A stretch of DNA of 64,000 bases from Mya arenaria (lineage: Eukaryota > Mollusca > Bivalvia > Myida > Myidae). Under the pieces are notes generated by a model, which searched no databases, had not been told where the DNA came from, and worked only from the letters and a program-made list of their open reading frames with translations. Numbering within the stretch: the first letter of the stretch is position 1; every line of letters begins with the position of its first letter. Below are positions 33,955 through 59,190 of this stretch, one piece after another. Location: positions 15,837,225 to 15,901,224 of the forward strand of contig NC_069136.1 in assembly GCF_026914265.1 (NCBI RefSeq), in the 5' to 3' direction. Both the position numbers and the translations under genes were made by a program.

Positions 33955-34790
33955 CTGTTAAAATTGGATCAAGGTATATGTTTACCTTTTGTATTGCTTC
34001 GATATGTCGTTTGTAAGTGTACATGCATTTTCATGAGAATATTTACATTTAATACAATACATAGACCTATGTTAAACATAAATCCCCGTCTTTGTGTTTT
34101 TGTATTTATCGCGTATGGACCTCACCTCGATTTTCACGTAATTGACACAAAAACGGCATCTATAATCTATTTTTTAGATGTTAGTGGAAACAAAGAACTT
34201 TATTTTTTGGCCTAAACGATATTAAGCCAATAAAAAATTAGATAAAATATATGGACTTTCAAATAGATTAAGCAGTTTGAGAATTGTCTTTTTTGAATAA
34301 TTGCCTTTCTATACAAACGAACTATTATAAAACTATTATTTATGATGATTGCATTTTCCAAGGCGTTTGAATACAATTATTACCTACATTTTCAGCTTAT
34401 ATGATCGCTTATAAGCGTTCAATAAGTACCAGGATTGCAGGTTAACAACTCATCAGTTAACAATGTGATTAACGAAAGCGTTGTTAAATTTTAAACGTGA
34501 ACTATTTAATGATGCGCTCACATATTTGAACTAATCAAGTACAGCTGAAAAAATCAGTTACAAATTACAAATCTCAATTACAGAAATACAGCAGATCACA
34601 AGTGTATCCATTTAACTTCTAGAGCAGTATAGATTTCATCTTAAACATCGATCTGAACAATCCTCCCATTACGTCATAATTTGATTATAGTGAAGACACG
34701 TTATAATCTAATACAACCCAATATCGGTACTGAGTGTATTTAGTCCCACGAGGGACGAGTGGGGCAAATTATAAATTGAAAAATTAAACA
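33955..34790. other. Intergenic, no gene seen
   Basis: An 83-codon ORF at 33964-34215 has no motif or splice context. Confidence 0.4.
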
Positions 34791-35015
34791 TGAAATATCT
34801 TGCTGATTTTATTTCAACTTCATCGGGTTAGCCGGCCAAGATTTGAATTGTTGAAGTAACATTTCAAACAATTGTTTTTCATCAGGACTTCAGGCGGCGG
34901 AATTGAAATATCTTGCTGATTTTATTTCAATCACGTCGGGTTAGCCGGCCAAGATTGCAAGATTGTCAAATCGATGGAAGAAGCATGACAAACAATAGTT
35001 TCTCATTCGCACTTT
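34791..35015 (+). repeat. Tandem duplication, about 115-bp unit
   Basis: TTGAAATATCTTGCTGATTT and GGGTTAGCCGGCCAAGATT occur twice, 115 bases apart, each followed by a CAAACAAT(T/A)GTTT block. Two diverged copies. Confidence 0.7.
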
Positions 35016-35061
35016 TGGTGGCGTTCCATCAGCCTTACAATCATTACAGTACCACACATTT

Positions 35062-35244
35062 TTATTTATAACAGTTTCGGCAGTAGCCAGCTGGAGGGGA
35101 AATGTTCAAAAGCTCATGTCGTTCACAAGGTTCTACGGTAAAGACTCCAGCACAACACAATTGGCATTCCCAACAGAACCTTTTAGAATAATCATTGTAC
35201 TGTAGTCCAGCAAACCCAACGATGTCAGTATATCGTTTTGCCAT
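35062..35244 (-). CDS. Small Cys-rich ORF, uncertain
   Basis: ATG to stop on minus, 60 codons. After about 20 residues it has FCWECQLCCAGVF, then PCERHELL and YCRNCYK at the C-terminus: C-x2-C-x2-CC...C-x2-H...C-x2-C, a spacing that could bind one or two zinc ions. No splice acceptor or promoter stands out, and 60 codons can arise by chance. I recognise no family. The Cys-pair density is unlike neighbouring spurious ORFs, which is the only reason to list it. Confidence 0.25.
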   Translation of the reverse strand: MAKRYTDIVGFAGLQYNDYSKRFCWECQLCCAGVFTVEPCERHELLNISPPAGYCRNCYK

Positions 35245-35924
35245 AGTAAGTGAATAGTACAGTCACTGCTGTGTGTTTTTTATTGGTTTGAAATGCTCAA
35301 AAAGCATGTACATTATTAAAGAACATGCATTCGTAATCTTCAGAAAACTAGCGCATTGCTAACCAATGTTAGACATTTGAGCTAACTAGCGTATTGCGGT
35401 TGTATACAGCATTTATAACTGTGTGAATCAGAACGATCAGAACGGGTAGTGTTCGAGTGATGCTTAAAATTTTACAAAACCGTTTTACTATCTTATCTAC
35501 ATATGAGCTCACAATTGCAATAGCAATTAAGTGATTTTTATGTTTTTGTGTTTGACATTTTGATAGAGTTTCTATCGAAGTATATTTGTTTGTTTGTTTT
35601 TTTAAAATTTTATTTCCCAAAATAAAAGCTGAAAGAGAACATATTTACATGGGATTTGTCAAGTAATCAAGTAACAAAGTGTTATTTACACCAACAACTT
35701 AAACAGTTCCTGGAGATCCCCACCCACATGAGATCCATTATTTCCATGACTTGTTATCCGCTTTTATTTTCTTAGTTCAGACAGATCTGCCATCAGGCAA
35801 ACCCAGTCGATTGGTTCTGAAATGTCCACAGGAATCTGTCCGTTCTGTTCGTTCTGGGAAGTGACATTCTTTATGGGTGATATCGGTCTCATCGTCGGTG
35901 CCACACTATGCTGTAAAGGTCAGC
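35245..35924. other. Intergenic, no gene seen
   Basis: A minus ORF at 35369-35620 is AT-driven. Nothing else supported. Confidence 0.4.
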
Positions 35925-36040
35925 TTCTTCGGTAAGGTCGGCTTTGCTGAGGTCGGCTTCGCTGATGAGGTCCGCTCAGCTGAGGTCGGCTTCGCTGATG
36001 AGGTCGGCTCAGCTGAGGTCGGCTTCGCTGAGGTCCTGAA
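35925..36040 (+). repeat. 33-bp tandem repeat, about 3 copies
   Basis: Unit GCTGAGGTCGGCTTCGCTGA then TGAGGTCGGCTCA, reading AEVGFADEVGS in one frame. It sits in an open frame from 35877 to 36227 that continues after the repeat with KQINCLRAGGIMFPTFLNN and DECRCQTQTENL. That C-terminal part looks more protein-like than the repeat, but no start, promoter or splice site supports a gene. Confidence 0.6.
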
Positions 36041-36571
36041 TCCTGAAAACAAAGTACTTCCTACATACAAACAGAAACAGATAAACTGTTTACGTGCAGG
36101 GGGTATAATGTTTCCAACATTTCTTAATAATACACAACAGGAACGAAATTGTGCATTTATGGCATTGGTAGATGAATGTAGATGTCAAACACAAACTGAA
36201 AATTTATCTAATAGCAGTTCAATATAATAAATCAAACACATTGTCTGTTATTAGAAAACCTATCAGTTTATAAATTTTGCAATTATTCAAGGCATATTTC
36301 AGCTTGTTTCATATTTATGAAACCTTCCATTCGAATGCAGACTGTTATGAGATCAAACAGACTAAGCACTGAGATTATGATAGGACAGTTCAATTCATGG
36401 AATGAATTTTGAGTGGTTTAACTTACTTGTAAACGTACTTTCTTGGATACTGCCTTCAACCATTTTGATGAGCAGGTTTTTTACACACAGGACGACTGCA
36501 TCTGAACTGCTGTCTCTGGTTTAAAAAATAATTTTCAACATTTTTTTCAAACAAATCTTGCATGAGCTAAA
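36041..36571. other. Intergenic, no gene seen
   Basis: No feature beyond the open tail noted for 35925-36040. Confidence 0.4.
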
Positions 36572-37568
36572 CACAGTGACTTGGAGGGAATGTGCTGAAT
36601 TTTGACCTCTACAAAATTTAGTGACATTTTACCTAAAATAAACCTAAAATATATATATAGTTCTCCAGATTCATCAAAGGGGTCACTCATACCAACTATC
36701 TAGCATAAATAACTATGAATTACGGCACTTTTACAAAGTCAGAAAATCTCGATTTGTCTAAATAGAGTAAAGTGAAACAACTCCAATTTCTTCGAAATGG
36801 GACAGCTAAGAAAAACATGCCTACTAAAGCACCCAAACGAAAAGTTGCAACAAAAACATGCAGCCAACATGCAGATAAACCTTCAATCTTTCAATTGCAA
36901 CCACTATTCTCACCTGAACATGCATCTAGTTGGAGAAATTTGATAAAGTTTCTGAAAATATCCCAAAAAAATCTCAACACAGACTTGCGTTGTATTAATG
37001 ATAATAAACCAGTCTATTTTTTTTTTAAATATTGTATTTAATAATACAATCAACCTTACTAATATTTCATCAATTACCTTTCATTAATAAACGAACAAAA
37101 CAGCCTTTACTCGCGAGATAATGGGTAAATTAAAAAAACACAAAAACAAATGCAGGTTTGGTTACGTTACACTATTACTTCTTCCCCGAATTCGGCTACC
37201 ACGTCTGCTTCATGAATAATTCAGTTGAACCAAAAAACGTCCGCCCCGTCGTATTTAAGGTTTATCTGCATGTTGGCTGCATGTTTTTGTTGCAACTTTT
37301 CGTTTTGGTGCTTTAGTAGGCATGTTTTTCTCAGCTGTCCCATTTCGATGAAATTGGAGTTGTTTCACTTTACTCTATTAAGACAAATCGAGATTTTCTG
37401 ACTTTGTAAAAGTGCCGTAATTCATAGTTATTTATGCTAGATAGTTGGTATGAGTGACCCCTTTGATGAATCTGGAGAAATATATATATATTTTAGGTTT
37501 ATTTTAGGTAAAATGTCACTAAATTTTGTAGAGGTCAAAATTCAGCACATTCCCTCCAAGTCACTGTG
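36572..37568. mobile_element. Foldback element with 313-bp arms
   Basis: Left arm 36572-36884 and right arm 37257-37568 are inverted copies with only a few differences. Outer edges read CACAGTGACTTGGAGGGAAT / ATTCCCTCCAAGTCACTGTG; inner edges read CAGATAAACCTT / AAGGTTTATCTG. The spacer is 372 bp. An 89-codon frame (36772-37041) crosses the inner left arm into the spacer and reads MPTKAPKRKVATKTCSQHAD then PSIFQLQPLF; its basic N-terminus looks coding-like but half of it is duplicated in the opposite arm. No transposase found. Such near-perfect arms can form a long hairpin or cruciform and dsRNA if transcribed. Confidence 0.75.
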
Positions 37569-38515
37569 AAACGAGCTGGGACCAATTTCTTTTGACTGAG
37601 AAGTTTTTATGTAATTCGATACATTCATCGACAAAACTTATTGGCAATATGATGCATCATATATTTAGACACAATTTCGCAAAAAAAATTAAACATGCAT
37701 GTCATAATTACCGCAAGAAAGCTGGAAATACAACCTTCACCATTTTTTTTTTCAAAATGGCCGACCAGCGAACAGCGAGAATTCTGCAATATGACGTCAT
37801 ACATACACGTCATATCATTCCATGAATTGCATTATTTTTTTTATTCAAATAATTCATTTTTACGAAAATAAACTCATAAAAAAATAATTGAAATTATCTT
37901 AATTATGTATTATGTACTGTATTAGTATCGTTTTATGATATTAAACATTAGGAAAAAATAAAATGTTTGTTGTGTTCATTTTCAGAAAAACGAAATCGAA
38001 AGTAGAAATATTTTCTGAAATTGGAAATGTTTAAAACCTCGTAAAATCATTTATATCTCTTGTATATGCATAAACCCGACATGATTCAATCACGAAAACA
38101 TTATAGAAACTATAACTACCAAAGTCGTACCTTCAAACACAGAAAATATCCCAAAATTTTACACAAAAAGAGTATTGTTTACATGGGTTCAACCGTATAC
38201 AAGTGAATACGGCAGGCAACACTTTCCCTTATAATTATAATCAGCTGAGAGCTGCTGCTAAACGGTCAATTTTGTACTGAAAATCGTAACATTATTCTGT
38301 GATTGCTTTACTCTATTTTATGTTTTATTTTGCTTAAGTATCGTACTTTGTAGCATTTTACGATACATTCTGTGTATCTTTGAGGAGTTATGCGTAGCGA
38401 TTTGCACATATATATGACTATATGACCATTATTCGTTTGATAACTATGAGCAAGCATAGTTGTTCTTGAAGCTTAAGTGATTCCAACTTAATTACTATAC
38501 ACGAACAGTTCATAC
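37569..38515. other. Intergenic, no gene seen
   Basis: AT-rich; overlapping ORFs at 37592-37825 on both strands lack motifs. Confidence 0.4.
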
Positions 38516-38563
38516 ATTTTATTTTGTTAGCATTCATTATCTGTTAATTCATTCAATATATTA

Positions 38564-38965
38564 TCAACACCGTTTTGGGACAAATTGTCTCCCACGCCTG
38601 GCGAAGAACTGGCGAAGTGCCTGATGGTTCTCATTTCTTTCAAGCTCTTGATAGTTTGATGGCTGCTCTGCAACAAGTTCAGTTTGGCAAGTTCTGTCAA
38701 CACTCGAGTCCTCTTGTATCAAACACACCAAACAGGGGTACAGTTCGGGACACAGATGGCTTGGGGCTTTCTGTTCTGCTTTCTCAGCACCCCCTTGTTG
38801 AAGCATATTAAACACGGACAGTCTCGGACACGTGTGACTCTGCACATTGTCAAGTTCTTTCGGTGTTGTATCACACGAAGACCTTCTGAATAGCTTCCTC
38901 AAGCATACTCTGATTGAAACCCATAATGCGTTTACTTGGTCAGTAGGTTTTGACAAGTATGACAT
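38564..38965 (-). CDS. ORF D of the compact cluster, 133 aa, function unknown
   Basis: Uninterrupted ATG-to-TGA frame on minus. The N-terminal part (WVSIRVCLRKLFRRSS) is amphipathic and basic; the middle has scattered Cys (SHTCPRL, LCPELYPCLVC) and the C-terminus is Arg-rich (RQFFARRGRQFVPKRC). A complementary AATAAA lies 41 bases after the stop (38518-38523). A TATAAAAAG box is on minus at 38981-38990, rather close to the ATG, so the true start may be further in or the box fortuitous. It lies downstream of acidic ORF A on the same strand with 130 bases between. No homolog recognised. Length and poly(A) signal support a gene, but it could be a decayed one. Confidence 0.45.
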   Translation of the reverse strand: MSYLSKPTDQVNALWVSIRVCLRKLFRRSSCDTTPKELDNVQSHTCPRLSVFNMLQQGGAEKAEQKAPSHLCPELYPCLVCLIQEDSSVDRTCQTELVAEQPSNYQELERNENHQALRQFFARRGRQFVPKRC

Positions 38966-39095
38966 GAGAAGAAAAAATAAGCTTTTTATATTAACTTTAT
39001 TCGTTCAACTCATTGGATTATTTTCAGCCATGAACCATGGAATCTACAGTGCTAAGTACAGTGCTTGCTACTATGTTACTATGCTTCTATTGTTT

Positions 39096-39584
39096 TCAAT
39101 CGAGATTTAATAAACAATCAAAATGAATTTCAACGCACTTATTCAATGTTAAAACATCAAACAATTGGTTGAACCTTTTAATTTGGAAAGCACTTAATGA
39201 AGTATCATAAATGTTTGAGCGTATGAGAACTAATGTCAATTCTTTTTTTCGCTCACAAAAAATGCTTGGTTCAATTTCGTCAATTTTAACGTCTTCGTCT
39301 ACGGTGTCAATGTCCTCAAAATTATCACTATCATAACAGTAACCGTCACAAACGTAGCAATTTCTCATATTACAAACTGCGCCGTCTGGGTTGTCATCTT
39401 GCATAGACTCGATTTCAACATCTCGCAAAAAATCTTCTGCCATTTCTATTATTTTTTCATCTTCATTGATATTATCCATGGGTTGCTGAGAAGAAGATTC
39501 ACTCGACATGTTTTCTTGCATGTGCTCTTTTTCACTGGTGTTCTCACAAGGCGTTGTTTGCTGTGTCGATGCTTGACTGGACAT
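39096..39584 (-). CDS. Acidic Cys-containing protein A of the divergent pair, 162 aa
   Basis: Intronless ATG-to-stop frame on minus. Residues 1-35 are Ser/Gln-rich; about 40-55 hold NEDEKIIEMAEDFLRDVE, matched by TEDEKLQAMAEDYLRGAAE in paralogue A' at 41252-42023. Next comes a C-x4-C-x2-C-x3-C cluster (CNMRNCYVCDGYC), possibly zinc-binding, then a strongly acidic stretch (DSDNFEDIDTVDEDVKIDEI) and a less charged C-terminus. A TATA-like CATATAAGG on minus (39627-39635) is 43 bases upstream of the ATG, and a complementary AATAAA is about 95 bases after the stop (38996-39001). Divergent from coiled-coil ORF C with 128 bases between starts. Acidic and Cys-containing composition would suit a regulatory or DNA-mimic protein, but no function can be assigned. 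Confidence 0.6.
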   Translation of the reverse strand: MSSQASTQQTTPCENTSEKEHMQENMSSESSSQQPMDNINEDEKIIEMAEDFLRDVEIESMQDDNPDGAVCNMRNCYVCDGYCYDSDNFEDIDTVDEDVKIDEIEPSIFCERKKELTLVLIRSNIYDTSLSAFQIKRFNQLFDVLTLNKCVEIHFDCLLNLD

Positions 39585-39712
39585 TATTGTTTTAGATTGT
39601 GTATGAAAAGTACCAAATTTTCAGCCCTTATATGAAAAAAATAATTCACTAGTATATCGCATTGCATCATATAAGTCGAAAAAAACTGACAGTGATCGCT
39701 TACAATAGAAAT
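39585..39712. promoter_or_regulatory. Bidirectional promoter between A and C
   Basis: 128 bases hold two outward TATA-like boxes: CATATAAGG read on minus (for A) and CATATAAGTC on plus at 39668-39677 (for C), each 40-45 bases before its ATG. The equivalent space between A' and C' (42024-42165) keeps the GTAGATTGT-like start, the minus TATA (ATTATAAGG) and AATAATTCA, so the spacer is inherited with the gene pair. Confidence 0.6.
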
Positions 39713-40183
39713 ATGACGGACATAAGCATCCTTAATTTACAAATTACCGGCTTCGTAGCGAGACTATGTATTGGTGATAACAAGCACGAGTCTACGTTCA
39801 AAGACATCGTCTCGATACTTGACAATATCGAGAAAACATTTCTGCAAAACAAACTAGCAACGACTGAGTATCGCAAGAAATGTGGCGCACTACAACAAAA
39901 GGTGTTTAGTTTGACCAGAGTGAACGATCGGCATAACCAAAGTAACACAGCGCAACAATATGAAATAACTCGTTTAACAACTGAGTTAGAACATTTGCAT
40001 AACTTCAATACAGTCGAATTGAATCTGTCACAGCTGACCGCGGAAAACAATCAGCTTAAGCAAAATAACACGGAATTGGAAGACGAAGTTTTGCGCTTGA
40101 AATCTCAAACAGACAACCTGCAATCCTTAGACGAAGCCACCTGTATGGAACTATTCAACGAAAACACTCAAGATTTTTCATGA
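39713..40183 (+). CDS. Coiled-coil protein C of the divergent pair, 156 aa
   Basis: Start chosen at 39713 (MTDISILNLQITGFVARLCI) because paralogue C' aligns from exactly this Met; the frame is open back to 39662. Residues 1-20 form a short hydrophobic block conserved in C' (LQFTGIVARLSVG). From about 75 to 140 it is a long coiled coil with leucine spacing (TELEHLHNF, LTAENNQLKQNNTELEDEVL, RLKSQTDNLQ), and the C-terminus is acidic. It probably oligomerises; no catalytic motif. TATA-like box 45 bases upstream. No good AATAAA was found within 150 bases. Intronless. The family is not recognised. Confidence 0.6.
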   Translation: MTDISILNLQITGFVARLCIGDNKHESTFKDIVSILDNIEKTFLQNKLATTEYRKKCGALQQKVFSLTRVNDRHNQSNTAQQYEITRLTTELEHLHNFNTVELNLSQLTAENNQLKQNNTELEDEVLRLKSQTDNLQSLDEATCMELFNENTQDFS

Positions 40184-40260
40184 ATGACTTTACTTTGCCA
40201 CTTACAAGTGAATATTACGAAATACAATAATCAACAATTTCAAAGCATTCGTTTGTATGT

Positions 40261-40601
40261 TTATTTTATGTTGTCAGAAGTCTTTATGGCTGGTGGTCTG
40301 TTTTTTACATTGCTCACATCGCTGGCCAGCTCAGAGTTCTCCGTTTTCCTCTTAGCACTTAAGTTCGATGTACAATTTATCAGCATCTCTTTTTGCTCTG
40401 TGTAGTACAACTTACAGTCGTCGCACTGGCAGTCCTCAACTTCGTAAAACAGTAATAATAATTCAATTTAAAAAACTTACAGTCGTCAAACTGGCAGTTC
40501 TCAATACAATTGTTTGTCATGATGCGATTTGTTTGACATTTGTTGATTTCAGCAAGAATTAGCAAGATATATTCAAAAACCGTGGTCCTAATGTAATACA
40601 T
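40261..40601 (-). pseudogene. Broken Cys-motif ORF B2
   Basis: Two overlapping frames on minus. The first (from 40601) reads NKCQTNRIMTNNCIENCQFD then DCK. After a duplication of about 62 bases the second frame restarts with a near copy (EDCQCDDCKLYYTEQKEMLI) and runs on (SAKRKTENSELASDVSNVKN) to a stop at 40261. The repeated N/DCQ-x-DDCK block includes GTAAGT, so a short intron is an alternative to a frame-breaking duplication. Begins 14 bases inside the end of the RING-like ORF. Function unknown. Confidence 0.4.
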
Positions 40602-40970
40602 TAAGTCTTAAGAACGCAAATCTCAGTACGTTGTGCTTAAACTGTTCTCTTGCGCTTTGCTTGATTCTAGCCAGATAATCTTTTCCTTCTGAGTTACTAT
40701 TGTTTATTTCACCCAATCTTTTGTAGTAACGTTTTCTGTTTCTTCTATTAATTTTTTTGTACCGGATGGTTTATCCAACAATGTGGACAAACAGCTTTGT
40801 ATTTTTTCGAAACACCAAAGGCAGGCAAAATGTTCAAATGCACATTGTTTCATAACGAGCAAGAGATAGTCAATGTTACTGTAGCCACCGCACCAATGAC
40901 CAGCTCTGAAACGTTTTCCGAGTCTCTTATCGTACGAAATATATTGTTTTGGACCGTTGTTGTGAGCCAT
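40588..40970 (-). pseudogene. RING-finger-like gene B, frameshifted
   Basis: Opens at 40970. The frame carries CAFEHFACLWC, matching C3-x3-H4-x2-C5-x2-C6 of a RING finger. The expected final pair appears as VCPHCW but in another frame, after an A-run at about 40800-40808, so a frameshift separates the two halves. A third frame then carries a basic coding-like tail (RNRKRYYKRLGEINN, then GKDYLARIKQSAREQF) to a stop at 40588. RING domains usually act as ubiquitin E3 ligases; the first Cys pair is not clear here (only HWC). At least two frame breaks make the copy non-functional unless the assembly is wrong. It lies between the two divergent gene pairs. Confidence 0.45.
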
Positions 40971-41251
40971 TTAAAAGGTTTCAAAAATATTTCACTATAG
41001 GGTCAAGCCGATTTCATTCAGTTTATGTAATTCAAATGTTTTGTTTACAATAAACTACTGTCTATGTTTGCTGCGTTTTACACATTTACGAAAACACAAG
41101 ACAAAGAATATTTCATTTTTTTTTCATGTTTATTTTACAATTGAATCGTTATCTACAAAAACTTGAAACATCATAACACTCTAAATGTCTCCAAAGTCCT
41201 GATACTCAGAGTCCCCAGGATCTTAATTTTGAAGATCCATAGGTTCAATGT

Positions 41252-42023
41252 TTATAAGTACGGTTTTATCGTTTCCCACATATAGCCTAACAGCTTCAAC
41301 AGGAAATCGTTTAGAATCTCAGGTTCAGCATAATCGTTTGAACTGTTTCTCAGTGCTGTCCTCGCTTCTTCCGTCTCACAATACTTGATCTTTCTGTACA
41401 TTTCAACGCACCTCCGGATCTGGTCTGCCTCATATTTGGACTCCTGAATCTTGTATATTTGTTCAATTATTTTTGCAATTTGGTCATGATCCAAAGGGGA
41501 AGCCGGCGAAGAATTTTCAAGATCATCGCTAAAATTCTCATTCTCGATATCGTCGTCATCTGAAAGGACAATAGCTGTAGCTTCATCTTTTCCTTCCCAT
41601 GCCTTGAACTTCTTCCTTATCGGGCTAGCAGGTGGAGTAAGAACGTCTGCGTTTACTTTAACTGCGCTGAATTCTTTCTCATCCATGCTCACATCCATAC
41701 AAGGCTCGATATTTTTAAGTTCAATTTCACTTTTTTCGGTTTCAATGTCTTCAACAGAACCGCTCTCGAAGCTATCACATTCATCGGTATCGGAAAAAAC
41801 CAAAAAAAAAACATCGCAAATACAGCAGTGTGCCTTCTTGCAACCTGGATAGTACCCCCCAATGCAAATCGGGCAATTGCTGTTTTTCGTCTTTAGACGA
41901 TGTTACAGTTGACACATCTTTATGTTCTTCATGTTCTGCTGCACCTCGCAAATAGTCTTCTGCCATTGCTTGTAGTTTTTCGTCTTCAGTTAAGTAGTGC
42001 TGAGGAGATGATTTGCTTGACAT
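41252..42023 (-). pseudogene. Acidic protein A', paralogue of A, with one frame break
   Basis: Starts MSSKSSPQHYLTEDEKLQAM on minus at 42023 and follows A for about 50 residues. Near 41882-41887, at a run of five A (read on minus), the frame must shift by one base; the second frame then carries CPICIGGYYPGC and AHCCICD (a Cys cluster where A has one), acidic stretches (DTDECDSF, IVLSDDDDIENENF), a TPPASPIRKKFKAWEG segment like a basic or phospho-site motif, and a helical C-terminus (DQIAKIIEQIYKIQESKYEA) to the stop at 41252. Complementary AATAAA is about 120 bases after the stop (41129-41134). TATA (ATTATAAGG) is 46 bases upstream. Either a recent pseudogene, an assembly error in the homopolymer, or a frameshifted gene; the long intact second frame suggests the break is recent. 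Confidence 0.5.
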
Positions 42024-42165
42024 GTTGTATATTGTAGATTGTTTGTAACCAGTGCACAATTTGGAGACCTTATAATAGCAAAAGAATAATTCATCGATAT
42101 TATTAATCGTCGAAACATTCATATTCATATCCATGCTCAAACAGTGCTTATATCCTTCATCAGCT
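42024..42165. promoter_or_regulatory. Bidirectional spacer between A' and C'
   Basis: 142 bases equivalent to 39585-39712. The minus TATA-like box (42069-42077) is preserved; the plus-side box is weak (CTTATATCC near 42148), in line with the decay of C'. Confidence 0.5.
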
Positions 42166-42579
42166 ATGTCCGCACTAAGTAACCTCACATTACAATTTAC
42201 AGGCATTGTAGCGAGACTGAGTGTTGGTACATGCAGTCAGGAAATTGCTCTCAAACACCTCGAAAGTCTTTATGACTGAGAGAAGGGTCGCCCGCTCCAA
42301 CCTTCTTAACCATTCAGCTTTCACATTATATGTTCTTACTGTACTCTGACTCAAAAGTGCATATCATATGCAGGATCGTCATCATGTTTTTTTTTTCTTC
42401 AATGTAAACAGTCTACACGTTATCATGAGGTGACCGAGTTTTCTCTCAAGGTGATAAAACACGAGCGCTACAATCACAAGCTCATAGAGAAATTGCGCAA
42501 ACGTTTAAAGGTACGGATATCAATCGGATATCAATACGAACAACTAACTACACGAACAAAGAAAACGAACGAGTACAAG
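42166..42579 (+). pseudogene. Coiled-coil protein C', decayed paralogue of C
   Basis: The first 37 codons (MSALSNLTLQFTGIVARLSV then GTCSQEIALKHLESLYD) align with C, then a stop at 42277. About 120 bases later the alignment resumes in an open frame: FLQCKQSTRYHEVTEFSLKV against FLQNKLATTEYRKKCGAL of C, continuing HERYNHKLIEKLRKRLK. The interrupting 42280-42398 block has no counterpart in C and no good GT donor at its left edge, so it looks like an insertion or local rearrangement rather than an intron. The leucine-rich second half of C is missing, and the sequence passes into the hexamer satellite. Confidence 0.5.
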
Positions 42580-43025
42580 TGAATGTACACTAAAACACAT
42601 GTACAAGTACACCAACAAGTGCTCATACAAGTACATGTATAAATACACTAACAAACACACTTATAAGTACATGTGCTCGTACAAGTACACGTACAAGAAC
42701 ATCTACAACAACACGAACAATTACACTTACAAGTACATGTATAAGTATACTAAAACGTACACGTTCAAGTACACGTTAAAGTACACTAACACGTACACGT
42801 ATAAGTACACTTACACGTACACGTTCAAGTACATGGAAAATCGCATTTTACAAGTACACGTTCAACTGCACGTACAATAATACGTACACGTACACTAACT
42901 AGTTCACGTACATGTACACTACAAGTTTACATATAAGTACACTTTCCTTAATAAGTTCAATTGTATGTACACGTACAAGTACACTTACAAGGTCACGTAC
43001 ATGAACACATTTACGAACACGTACA
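42580..43025. repeat. TACACN/TACAAG hexamer satellite, irregular part
   Basis: Imperfect hexamers such as AAGTACACTAAC, ACGTACAAGTACACGTTC in loose order. The same base sequence builds the array at 57120-59180. Long YTNKYTYK-type ORFs are artefacts. Confidence 0.85.
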
Positions 43026-43745
43026 AGTCCACGTACGAGTAAACTTACAAGTAAACTAACACGTACACTTTCAAATTAATGAACAAGTACACGTTTAGGA
43101 ACACGTACAGGTCCACGCATGAGTAAACTTACAAGTAAACTAACACGTACACTTTCAAATTAATGAACAAGTACACGTTTACGAACACGTACAGGTCCAC
43201 GCATGAGTAAACTTACAAGTAAACTAACACGTACACTTTCAAATTAATGAACAAGTACACGTTTAGGAACACGTACAGGTCTACGAATGAGTAAACTTAC
43301 AAGTAAATTAACACGTACACTTTCAAATTTAAGAACAAGTACACGTTTACGAACACGTACAGGTCCACGCATGAGTAAACTTACAAGTAAACTAACACGT
43401 ACACTTTCAAATTTAAGAACAAGTACACGTTTAGGAACACGTACAGGTCCACGCATGAGTAAACTTACAAGTAAATTAACACGTACACTTTCAAATTTAA
43501 GAACAAGTACACGTTTACGAACACGTACAGGTCCACGCATGAGTAAACTTACAAGTAAACTAACACGTACACTTTCAAATTTAAGAACAAGTACACGTTT
43601 ACGAACACGTACAGGTCCACGGATGAGTAAACTTACAAGTAAACTAACACGTACACTTTCAAATTTAAGAACAAGTACACGTTTACGAACACGTACAGGT
43701 CTACGAATGAGTAAACTTACAAGTAAATTAACACGTACACTTTAA
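43026..43745. repeat. 84-bp higher-order array of the hexamer satellite, about 8.5 copies
   Basis: Unit of 84 bases: GAACACGTACAGGTCCACGC / ATGAGTAAACTTACAAGTAA / ACTAACACGTACACTTTCAA / ATTTAAGAACAAGTACACG plus a few bases, with two alternating variants (TTTACGAAC or TTTAGGAAC; TAATGAAC or TTAAGAAC). The repeat ends about 285 bases before the signal-peptide exon of unit 1. Open frames of 98 and 152 codons come from 84 = 28 codons. Confidence 0.9.
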
Positions 43746-43959
43746 GTTTAAGAACAAGTGCACTATTAAGTGCACTAACAAGTACATAGACTGGAACATG
43801 TATATTTACAAAACGTACACATTGTGTTTGTCAATCTCTTTAGTATTACAATTGGCCACCTTTGTAGACTTGTAAAGAAATTAATGATATGAATAGTCCT
43901 ATAATATCCCTTTAACTTTTCATCTGACATTATGAAGTGGTTTGAGTACATTATCTGAT

Positions 43960-57119: not shown

Positions 57120-59190
57120 TGGGTTAATTTTTTGTGCAAGTACACTGACAAATACACGTACAAGTACCTTAACGATTGTACTTAAAATAATATTCACAAC
57201 TACACATACATGTACACTAACAAATATATTTACAACTACAAGTACAACTACACTCACAAATGCACTTACAGCTACATTAATAAGTACACGTACAAGTGCA
57301 CATATAAGTTCACATACAAGTACACGTACAAATACACATACAAGTACACATACATGTACACGTACAAATATACCTACAAGTACACTAACACGTACACTTA
57401 CAAGTACACTAACACGTACAAGTACAGGTACACTAACATGTACACTAACAAGATCTAGTACACTTACATGTACACTAATATGAACACCAACAAATACACT
57501 ACCAAGTACACTAATATGAACACCAACAAATACACTACCAAGTACACTAACAAGTACACTAACATGTACACTATCAAGTACACTAACAAGCACACAACCA
57601 AGTACACTAACAGGTACACTTTCAAGCACACTACCAAGTACACTAACATGTACACTTACAAGTACACTACCAAGTACACTAACAGGTACACTTACAAGTA
57701 CACTACCAAGTACACTACCAAGGACACTACCAAGTACACTAACAGGTACACTTACAAGTACACTACCATGTACACTAACAGGTACACTTACAAGCACACT
57801 ACCAAGTACACTAACAGGTACACTTACAAGCACACTACCAAGTACACTAACAGGTACACTTACAAGTACACTAACAGGTACACTTACAAGTACACTACCA
57901 AATACACTTACAGGTACACTTACAAGTACACTAACAAGTACACTACCAAGTACACTAACAGGTACACTTACAAGTACACTACCAAGTACACTAACAGGTA
58001 TACTTACAAGTATACTACCAAGTACACTAACAGGTACACTTACAAGTACACTAACAGGTACACTACCAAGTACACTAACAGGTACACTTACAAGTACACT
58101 ACCAAGTACACTAACAGGTATACTTACAAGTACACTACCAAGTCCACTAACTGGTACACTTACAAGTACGCTATCAAGTTCACTAACAGGTACTCTTACA
58201 AGTACACTACCAAGTACACTAGCAGGTACACTTACAAGTACACTACCAAGTACACTAACAGGTATACTTACAAGTACACTAGCAAGTACACTAGCAAGTA
58301 CACTGACAAGTACACTAACAAGTGCACTACCAAGTACACTAACAGGTACACTTACAAGTACACTACCAAGTACACTAACAGGTACACTTACAAGTACACT
58401 ACCAAGTACATAAACAGGTACACTTACAAGTACACTAGCAAGTACACTAGCAAGTACACTAAAAAGTACACTAACAAGTGCACTACCAAGTACACTAACA
58501 GGTACACTTACAAGTACACTTCCAAGTACACTAACAGGTACACTTACAAGAACATGTACAAGTACATTAATATGTACACTAGCAAGTAAACTTACAAGTG
58601 CACTAACAAGTACACTTACAAGTACACGTACAAGTACACGTAAAAGTACATGTACAAGTACACGTAAAAGTACACTACCAAGTACACATACAAGTACACG
58701 TACAAGTACACGTACAACTACACTTACAAGTACACTTACAAGTACACGTATAAGTACACGTACAAGTACACTTACACGAGCACTAACAAGTGCACTAACA
58801 AGTACACTTACACGTGCACTAACAAGTTAATTGCCAAGTACACTAAAAATTACGCCTACAAGTACACTTACAAGTACACGTACAAATTCACGTACAAGTA
58901 CACTAACAAATACACTTTCAAGTACACTTACAAGTACACGTACAAGTACACTTACAAATTTACTAACAAGTACACTTACAAGTACACTTACAAGTACACT
59001 TAAAAGTACACTAACAAATACACTTACAAGTACACGTACAAGTACACTTACAAGTACACGTACAAGTACACTTACAAGTACACTAACAAGTATACTTATA
59101 AAAATAATTTCAAGAACATTTACGAATACACTTACAAGTAAGCGTATAAGTAAACGTACATGTACAAGTAAGCGAGACAGTGTACGTACA
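57120..59190. repeat. TACACN hexamer satellite, about 2.1 kb
   Basis: Tandem hexamers forming 12- and 36-base composites: TACACTAACAGGTACACTTA then CAAGTACACTACCAAG. Order is more regular in 57460-58560, looser at both ends. It gives a 373-codon frame on plus (YTNRYTYKYTTK) and a 241-codon frame on minus (VSVLVSVL); both come from an in-frame period and are not taken as genes. Ends about 240 bases before the unit 2 signal-peptide exon, as the 42.6-43.7 kb array does for unit 1. Confidence 0.95.

Follow-up and report, generated by a model that had tools for sequence, protein, structure and literature searches.

The genome of the soft-shell clam Mya arenaria (an assembly of 1,216,080,610 bases on 18 contigs) raises, in a 64,000-nucleotide stretch (the window; C15:15837225-15901224), the question of how a compact, intronless cluster of small genes around a divergent gene pair, A and C, came to be there. 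A sequence-only reading of the window had proposed an eroded DNA virus, a large mobile-element insertion, or a lineage-specific gene pair. We consider it highly probable that the cluster represents the left and middle portions, now decayed, of the terminal direct repeat of an endogenous herpesvirus, in which a terminal repeat (TR) flanks the unique viral DNA (U) on each side in a TR-U-TR layout. Below, C-numbers denote contigs and L-numbers denote sequence pieces from the same genome (e.g., L012 and L026), while L and R without a number denote the left and right termini of the TR.

The open reading frame (ORF) of gene C was searched for genome-wide, with 150 of 180 candidates scored, so that the resulting counts are lower bounds. 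At least 134 matching stretches were found; at least 68 of those listed were full length (residues 1 to 156), 64 of them without a stop codon. At least 30 copies shared one identical score and E-value, which points to a recent burst. Over the 1.2 kb from A to C, eight young copies are 98.7 to 99.7% identical to L012, and the window copy is 90% identical to the young copies and 92 to 94% identical to a rarer group (L018, L019, L020, L021, and L008), four of which have a full-length C alignment. The genome thus holds dozens of insertions, of at least two clearly different ages. The ratio of nonsynonymous to synonymous divergence (dN/dS) of ORF C was 0.25 to 0.61 between the window and six other copies and 0.24 to 0.37 between L012 and others; the value of 1.28 for the very close pair L019/L020 is based on three changes. 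Gene C has been constrained during evolution and its frame is intact in the window, and the ratios indicate that the lineages diverged largely under constraint, as working viral genes. Broken and more divergent relatives were also observed, of a 469-amino-acid (aa) U gene at C6:15.76-16.27 Mb (30 to 69% identity) and of ORF C at C16:22.48-24.06 Mb (36 to 59%); they may represent at least one older, distinct herpesvirus lineage.

The dispersed copies belong to a unit, mostly 15 to 21 kb long and present in dozens of copies, with sharp ends (L, T-ACAACCC...; R, ...CAGTTTGC(T)). The 18 R-end matches (17 places) all extend to the last base, after which the sequences diverge: six run into CTGTG..., one (L009) into an L end, and those at ten places into differing flanks. 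In the L009 case, the L end of C9:4377655 directly follows another R, forming a head-to-tail TR-to-TR joint. When 20 L/R end pairs were read as sequence, L was exact in 19 and R was exact in 19. A G-run/ATTTTCAACAA/G-run motif, which we take to resemble the herpesvirus pac1 packaging motif, lies 82 to 83 bp from R in 13 of the 15 copies scanned; in L021 and L024 its runs are interrupted or shorter. The gene content of the TR differs between copies: a 2.3-kb stretch with two paralogous RING genes (L033:1417-3689) is present in the C12 TR and missing from those of C9 and C5. Duplicated clam genes of an ordinary, lineage-specific kind would agree with an ORF C that is open and constrained, but the near-identical copies number dozens, are dispersed, and share the same two end points, some of them beside viral genes. 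A host gene pair, the third of the origins first proposed, was rejected on these grounds and has next to no probability.

The viral genes lie in the U that adjoins these units. The herpesvirus terminase domains PF02500 (best E-value, 3.5e-12) and PF02499 (best E-value, 4.9e-17) occur together in one uninterrupted 713-aa frame, found by profile search over the curated cut-offs at three places:

C9:55857784-55859595, terminase frame of 713 aa
C9:55809228-55811027, terminase frame of 713 aa
C10:3693714-3695525, terminase frame of 713 aa

A damaged copy is present on C5, and none of 14 control genomes matched. At three places the terminase is 32.5 to 37.0 kb from the junction with the left end of U, each time in the orientation opposite to that of the TR. 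A family B DNA polymerase (PolB) gene lies about 20 to 22 kb upstream of ORF C copies at seven places, in the same orientation and with frames that stay open for up to 1339 codons, and its product matches PF00136 and the exonuclease domain PF03104. A UL9-like origin-binding protein (Herpes_ori_bp, PF02399; best E-value, 1.9e-15) is encoded at three places, 6.2 to 6.3 kb on the far side of PolB; one further PF02399 match, at C12:63967942, is weak and unlinked. To our knowledge, the origin-binding protein is not universal in Herpesvirales. It is the terminase and the origin-binding protein that mark the U gene set as herpesviral, and a two-domain terminase together with replication genes would place the element, as predicted from its sequence, in the order Herpesvirales. 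The pieces of U and TR examined also encode two Ser/Thr kinases, a BIR-BIR-RING protein, a BIR-RING protein, and several RING proteins. A model of the UL52 primase gave no match here and none in the controls either, and scans of IMG/VR, in which the queries were ORF C, PolB, the 469-aa protein, and a piece of the origin-binding protein, yielded no confirmed relative.

These neighbors support the proposal of an eroded DNA virus. A large mobile-element insertion was partly right, because viral DNA is dispersed in many copies, but not as a Maverick/Polinton or other non-herpes element, to which the sequence-only reading had asked that the genes be compared. Such an element would agree with the size range and the dispersed copies, whereas the linked genes encode a herpesvirus terminase, an origin-binding protein, and a PolB that matches PF00136 and PF03104. 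A Maverick/Polinton was rejected on polymerase type (PF00136 and PF03104 only), no genome search for an integrase having been made, and its probability is minimal. Elsewhere, four PF00136 PolB frames (528 to 1494 codons) about 24 kb apart were observed at C6:25258074-25330409, with no ORF C match nearby; they may belong to another large tandem viral or mobile element.

How the units are attached to U determines what they are. A search with the left end of U (the sequence after R), in which all 22 candidates were scored, showed that each of the 22 places starts immediately behind an R end (coordinates show this for 17 and sequence for five, i.e., the joints in L017, L007, C12 [L075], and C9 and C13 [L079 and L080]). 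A search with the right end of U (the sequence before L) gave 14 rows representing 12 distinct places, of which 10 run up to an L end (shown by sequence for C9:60192925 and by coordinates for nine) and the other two were outside the check. Altogether, 33 units touch U: 21 on the right only, 11 on the left only, and 1 on both sides. For the 28 units that were scored at each end, the numbers with U on the right, on the left, on neither side, and on both sides were 13, 6, 9, and 0 by coordinates, and 13, 7, 8, and 0 after the sequence-based correction of C9:60192925; among the 20 end pairs read as sequence, they were 8, 4, 8, and 0. The chance of finding no two-sided unit among 28 is P = 0.005 (0.013 without the correction) and becomes P = 0.022 when the two-sided unit is included (1 of 29). 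A unit within a circular or concatemeric genome is expected to have U on both sides as a rule, and direct repeats that end U are not. The almost always one-sided attachment therefore makes the units most likely TRs at the ends of U, and an internal viral segment was rejected, with two-sided U in 1 of the 33 units touching U. The TRs are direct at both ends of U, which is not the inverted-repeat layout TRL-UL-IRL-(X)-IRS-US-TRS. About 700 bp at L026:9372/L012:1118 are inverted relative to tandem copies in L027, so that an inverted pair inside U is possible. These tandem copies are 1.16-kb units in U (L027:393-5813 and L030), parts of which are inverted copies of the TR piece L012:1118-1870.

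In 8 of the 20 end pairs read, there was no U on either side (one of these has a frayed R). Such lone units are most likely solo-TRs, comparable to the solo direct repeats (solo-DRs) of human herpesvirus 6 (HHV-6). A copy on C10 retains two TRs and a shortened U (about 14.6 kb), and CTTTAT directly abuts its termini on either side. An alternative is that the L-to-R unit is an independently mobile satellite, i.e., a defective herpesvirus sub-genome that is replicated and cut by a helper and inserted alone. The commonness of units without U (8 of 20), the R-to-L joint in L009, the packaging-like motif near R, and the one two-sided unit (C9:55755164-55773978) would all suit a satellite; the one-sided attachment of 32 of the 33 units is instead the pattern given by terminal repeats, and the TR-U-TR copy has a single 6-bp direct repeat outside both TRs. 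We regard a satellite as unlikely, while leaving it some weight.

Solo-TRs also carry flush direct repeats (GAGAAT, GAAGGGT, and TATACATA). Flush repeats of at least 6 bp were present in 4 of 9 true flank pairs and in 0 of 42 mismatched pairs, in which the maximum was 5 bp; an eighth solo flank pair was excluded for its frayed R end. At 3 of 7 solo sites, the left and right flanks are alike over 57 to 73 bp, which indicates that those insertions occurred in host tandem repeats. Sharp ends, some flanking direct repeats, and many copies would likewise be expected of a Teratorn-like fusion, in which a DNA transposon with the ends L and R carries, or was captured by, a virus. A U ORF between PolB and the L end (L031:4020-4580) has a transposase-type helix-turn-helix (HTH_Tnp_1, 8.4e-7). 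Set against this, L and R have no inverted-repeat similarity to each other (by eye), there is no TTAA duplication at the nine flank pairs, no transposase catalytic domain was found among the ORFs scanned, and L and R delimit the TR rather than the whole virus. A Teratorn-like fusion is accordingly quite improbable. The product of L031:4020-4580, which also matches HTH_28 and, weakly, RING, is by its predicted domains a candidate regulator or integration factor.

Several observations weigh against an endogenous herpesvirus with direct TRs. With regard to layout, C9:55755164-55773978 has U on both sides (its R joint was read in L079) and is part of a C9 chain with several TRs. Tandem proviruses with one TR in common would account for this unit; our confidence is slightly lowered all the same. 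In the genome searches for the two ends, 40 of 93 R candidates and 40 of 112 L candidates were scored, which biases the set toward young copies. If the 68 full-length ORF C copies are taken as the number of units, the chance value is only P = 0.046. A complete provirus was not recognized; the longest stretch of U from one junction to the next (C9:55824965-55883529) spans about 58.6 kb and has no PolB match. With regard to the insertion sites, five of the nine flank pairs have no flush repeat above 4 bp, and the length varies from 6 to 8 bp where repeats occur. Two of the four positive sites (L035 and L049) are within host tandem repeats, and the flanks of a third (L041) are weakly alike (80% over 30 bp), so that these three flanking repeats are weakened as evidence. 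No repeat flanks the TR-U-TR copy on C12, whose two TRs are different alleles. With regard to gene content, PolB is matched best, among solved chains, by subunits of cellular DNA polymerase delta (7.4e-20, in the polymerase part), and herpesvirus polymerases rank second (2.3e-10, in the exonuclease part); the polymerase alone is thus no proof of a herpesvirus. The window copy itself contains no hallmark herpesvirus gene and was assigned to the herpesvirus because it is homologous to the TR.

Two of these loci merit separate description. The C9 chain (C9:55712468-55899797), which includes the two-sided TR, is made up of a number of TRs and pieces of U that all point the same way and probably represents tandem or recombined proviruses. 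On C12, the identity between the TRs at C12:59421609-59422808 and C12:59383150-59384449 is 100% for 468 bp and 90% for about 500 bp thereafter; the two TR alleles suggest recombination between proviruses.

The window copy comprises the following features, with positions counted from the first base of the window:

34712..42125, plus strand, decayed TR remnant (blastn blocks against L026 and L012, 71 to 96% identity)
34712..34757, plus strand, TR left terminus (L), T-ACAACCC.ATATCGG... (first bases match 19 of 20 end pairs read)
34944..35244, minus strand, zinc-finger-like gene, 99 aa in young copies (frameshift near 35063; 85% and 92.5% identity in two frames)
36556..37568, no strand, foldback (inverted-repeat) insertion (316-bp arms, 36572-36887 versus 37568-37253, 98% identical)
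38564..38965, minus strand, TR gene A0, 133 aa (open frame; 56% to L012:3865-4299, no stop)
39096..39584, minus strand, TR gene A, acidic, 162 aa (open; 76% to a young copy over 115 aa, no stop)
39585..39712, no strand, divergent A/C spacer with a conserved minus-strand TATA box (spacer alignment)
39713..40183, plus strand, TR gene C, coiled coil, 156 aa, intact (75 to 94% aa identity to full-length copies elsewhere)
40405..40526, minus strand, short pieces like a 192-aa gene of young TRs (weak; 54 to 67% over short stretches)
40597..40970, minus strand, TR gene D, Cys-rich/RING-like, 124 aa in young copies (frameshifted, one stop)
41252..42026, minus strand, TR gene A', paralogue of A (two broken frames)
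42027..42165, no strand, A'/C' spacer (minus-strand TATA, offset as in A/C)
42166..42276, plus strand, C' stub, paralogous to C over its first 37 codons (A/C versus A'/C' alignment)

The cluster described at first is real, but its start had been placed too far right, at 38564; the true start is 34712. The L end is kept at 34712-34713, where the outside DNA is flush and has no viral match, and the remnant is oriented like the young copies. It is split by the foldback insertion, right after which TR homology picks up again at 37569, and about 10 kb of TR present in the C9 copy (roughly L026:2279 to L012:2232) are missing. The zinc finger of the 99-aa gene was judged by eye, and the gene has no family match. 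At the right-hand breakpoint, for which 40 of 67 candidates were scored, homology stops at 42111-42128 against all 39 other copies, and no R end was detected in the window; the right terminus has therefore been lost. A ACAAGTACACGT-type satellite forms two arrays in the window (42597-43763 and 57137-59166), the first beginning about 320 bases past the C' stub.

The ORF coordinates confirm that A and C are divergent, on the minus and plus strands, with a 128-base spacer. The second pair, A'/C', aligns collinearly to both genes and to the spacer: A 39419-39512 versus A' 41942-42026 (72%, 52.7 bits), the A start and spacer 39559-39648 versus 41998-42093 (68%, 31.0 bits), and C 39723-39775 versus C' 42176-42228 (77%, 42.8 bits), compared with a top score of 27.4 bits from 200 dinucleotide-type shuffles. 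The duplication described earlier is thus beyond chance, and it is also visible at the protein level (46% over 41 aa for A/A' and 43% over 37 aa for C/C'). As a gene pair, A'/C' is less than had been suggested, with A' in two broken frames and C' a 37-codon stub that was not found in the 39 other scored copies and was seen only in the window. The shared minus-strand TATA box was upheld, since TATAAG occurs at an equal offset in both window spacers. It was also found in 13 of 15 aligned copies from elsewhere (not in L018 and L024; L004 and L020 are twin rows of one place, of which only L004 was counted), and TATAAG on the plus strand was found in the window copy only. Of the AATAAA signals reported past the stops of A, A', and D, those of A (at 100 bases) and A' (at 123 bases) were recovered; the 200 bases downstream of the D and C stops contain none, and one overlaps the stop codon of D itself.

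A RING-like gene had been placed between the pairs, and the Cys-rich D is indeed there, in frameshifted form. Its RING matches are all sub-threshold (Sina_RING, E = 0.0093, below cut-off), it has a Cys/His pattern common to two intact relatives, and its AlphaFold model, computed from a single sequence, has a mean pLDDT of 53.7. A Pfam search of the window ORFs gave only weak RING and coiled-coil matches, weak family matches being what identifies C as a coiled-coil protein, and an NCBIfam search of seven TR proteins gave no informative family. The immediate-early genes of the fish viruses AngHV1 and IcHV1 (Alloherpesviridae) are located in terminal direct repeats (PMC3626852), and by analogy a regulatory or early role is probable for A, C, D, and A'. 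The likeness drawn here to these viruses, i.e., terminal direct repeats with genes, is one of layout.

These observations suggest the following history. Linear viral DNA with termini L and R would have entered germline chromosomes, in some cases at a 6- to 8-bp staggered break, and recombination between the two TRs of a provirus would then have removed U and left a solo-TR. The TR genes (A/C, A'/C', D, and others) may serve the virus as regulatory or early genes, A and C being transcribed away from a single spacer, and the order A/C, D, A'/C' may have arisen by tandem duplication within an ancestral viral TR. The window copy would go back to an old solo-TR or half-provirus, with the right end since lost and a foldback insertion gained inside it, and among the copies scored it alone would have kept a trace of C'.

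Herpesvirus endogenization is usually regarded as a rare accident, either linked to telomeres or mediated by transposon capture. Integrated invertebrate herpesviruses (PMC5552708, PMC12373286) and the solo-DRs of HHV-6 (PMC7444522) are already known, and the comparisons made here follow the passages cited from each source. HHV-6 is described as having terminal direct repeats around a unique region, solo-DRs left after the loss of U, packaging signals near the repeat ends, and integration in telomeres by way of repeats that carry telomere sequence (PMC7444522). The clam element likewise has a TR-U-TR layout, single repeats, and a packaging-like motif near one end; it differs in that its ends are flush viral termini, some with 6- to 8-bp repeats, in dozens of copies per genome, a difference judged by the ends and not by chromosomal position. 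Malacoherpes-like integrations with DNA polymerase and terminase have been reported (PMC5552708), as has BelcheriHV-1 integrated in lancelet (PMC12373286). OsHV-1, HaHV-1, and BelcheriHV-1 resemble the clam element in having marine invertebrate or lancelet hosts, by description rather than by sequence. The long repeats of Malacoherpesviridae (OsHV-1/HaHV-1), arranged as TRL-UL-IRL-(X)-IRS-US-TRS, are inverted (PMC8537636), in contrast to the clam TRs, which are direct at both U ends. AciHV-3, integrated in lake sturgeon, has terminal direct repeats and several host junctions (PMC12031113), but its repeats are telomere-like hexamer arrays, whereas that of the clam is a gene-bearing unit of 15 to 21 kb. 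Teratorn, a piggyBac-herpesvirus fusion with TTAA targets and terminal inverted repeats (PMC5601938, PMC10175614), is similar in being an endogenous herpesvirus with tens of copies and intact genes; its TTAA targets and inverted repeats were not seen in the clam (nine flank pairs; repeats by eye). In the literature searched, we found no molluscan herpesvirus with direct TRs, dozens of dispersed insertions, solo-TRs, and flanking duplications, and no report of the present element in Mya; we do not claim that either is absent from print.

A single genome thus contains dozens of exact-termini insertions in three structural forms (left half, right half, and solo-TR). A bolder reading, which we hold to be less likely than not, is that a lineage of invertebrate herpesviruses integrates into germline chromosomes much like a retrovirus, by its exact termini, with a short target duplication and as part of its regular biology, and that it entered this genome in several waves over a long period, leaving solo-TR genes that are open and possibly still expressed. 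The clam insertions make herpesvirus insertion by exact ends and the collapse of proviruses to solo repeats testable, together with the possibility that an unrecognized herpesvirus circulates in soft-shell clams. They also serve as a warning that TR genes of viral origin may be listed as compact "lineage-specific" genes in the annotations of bivalve genomes.

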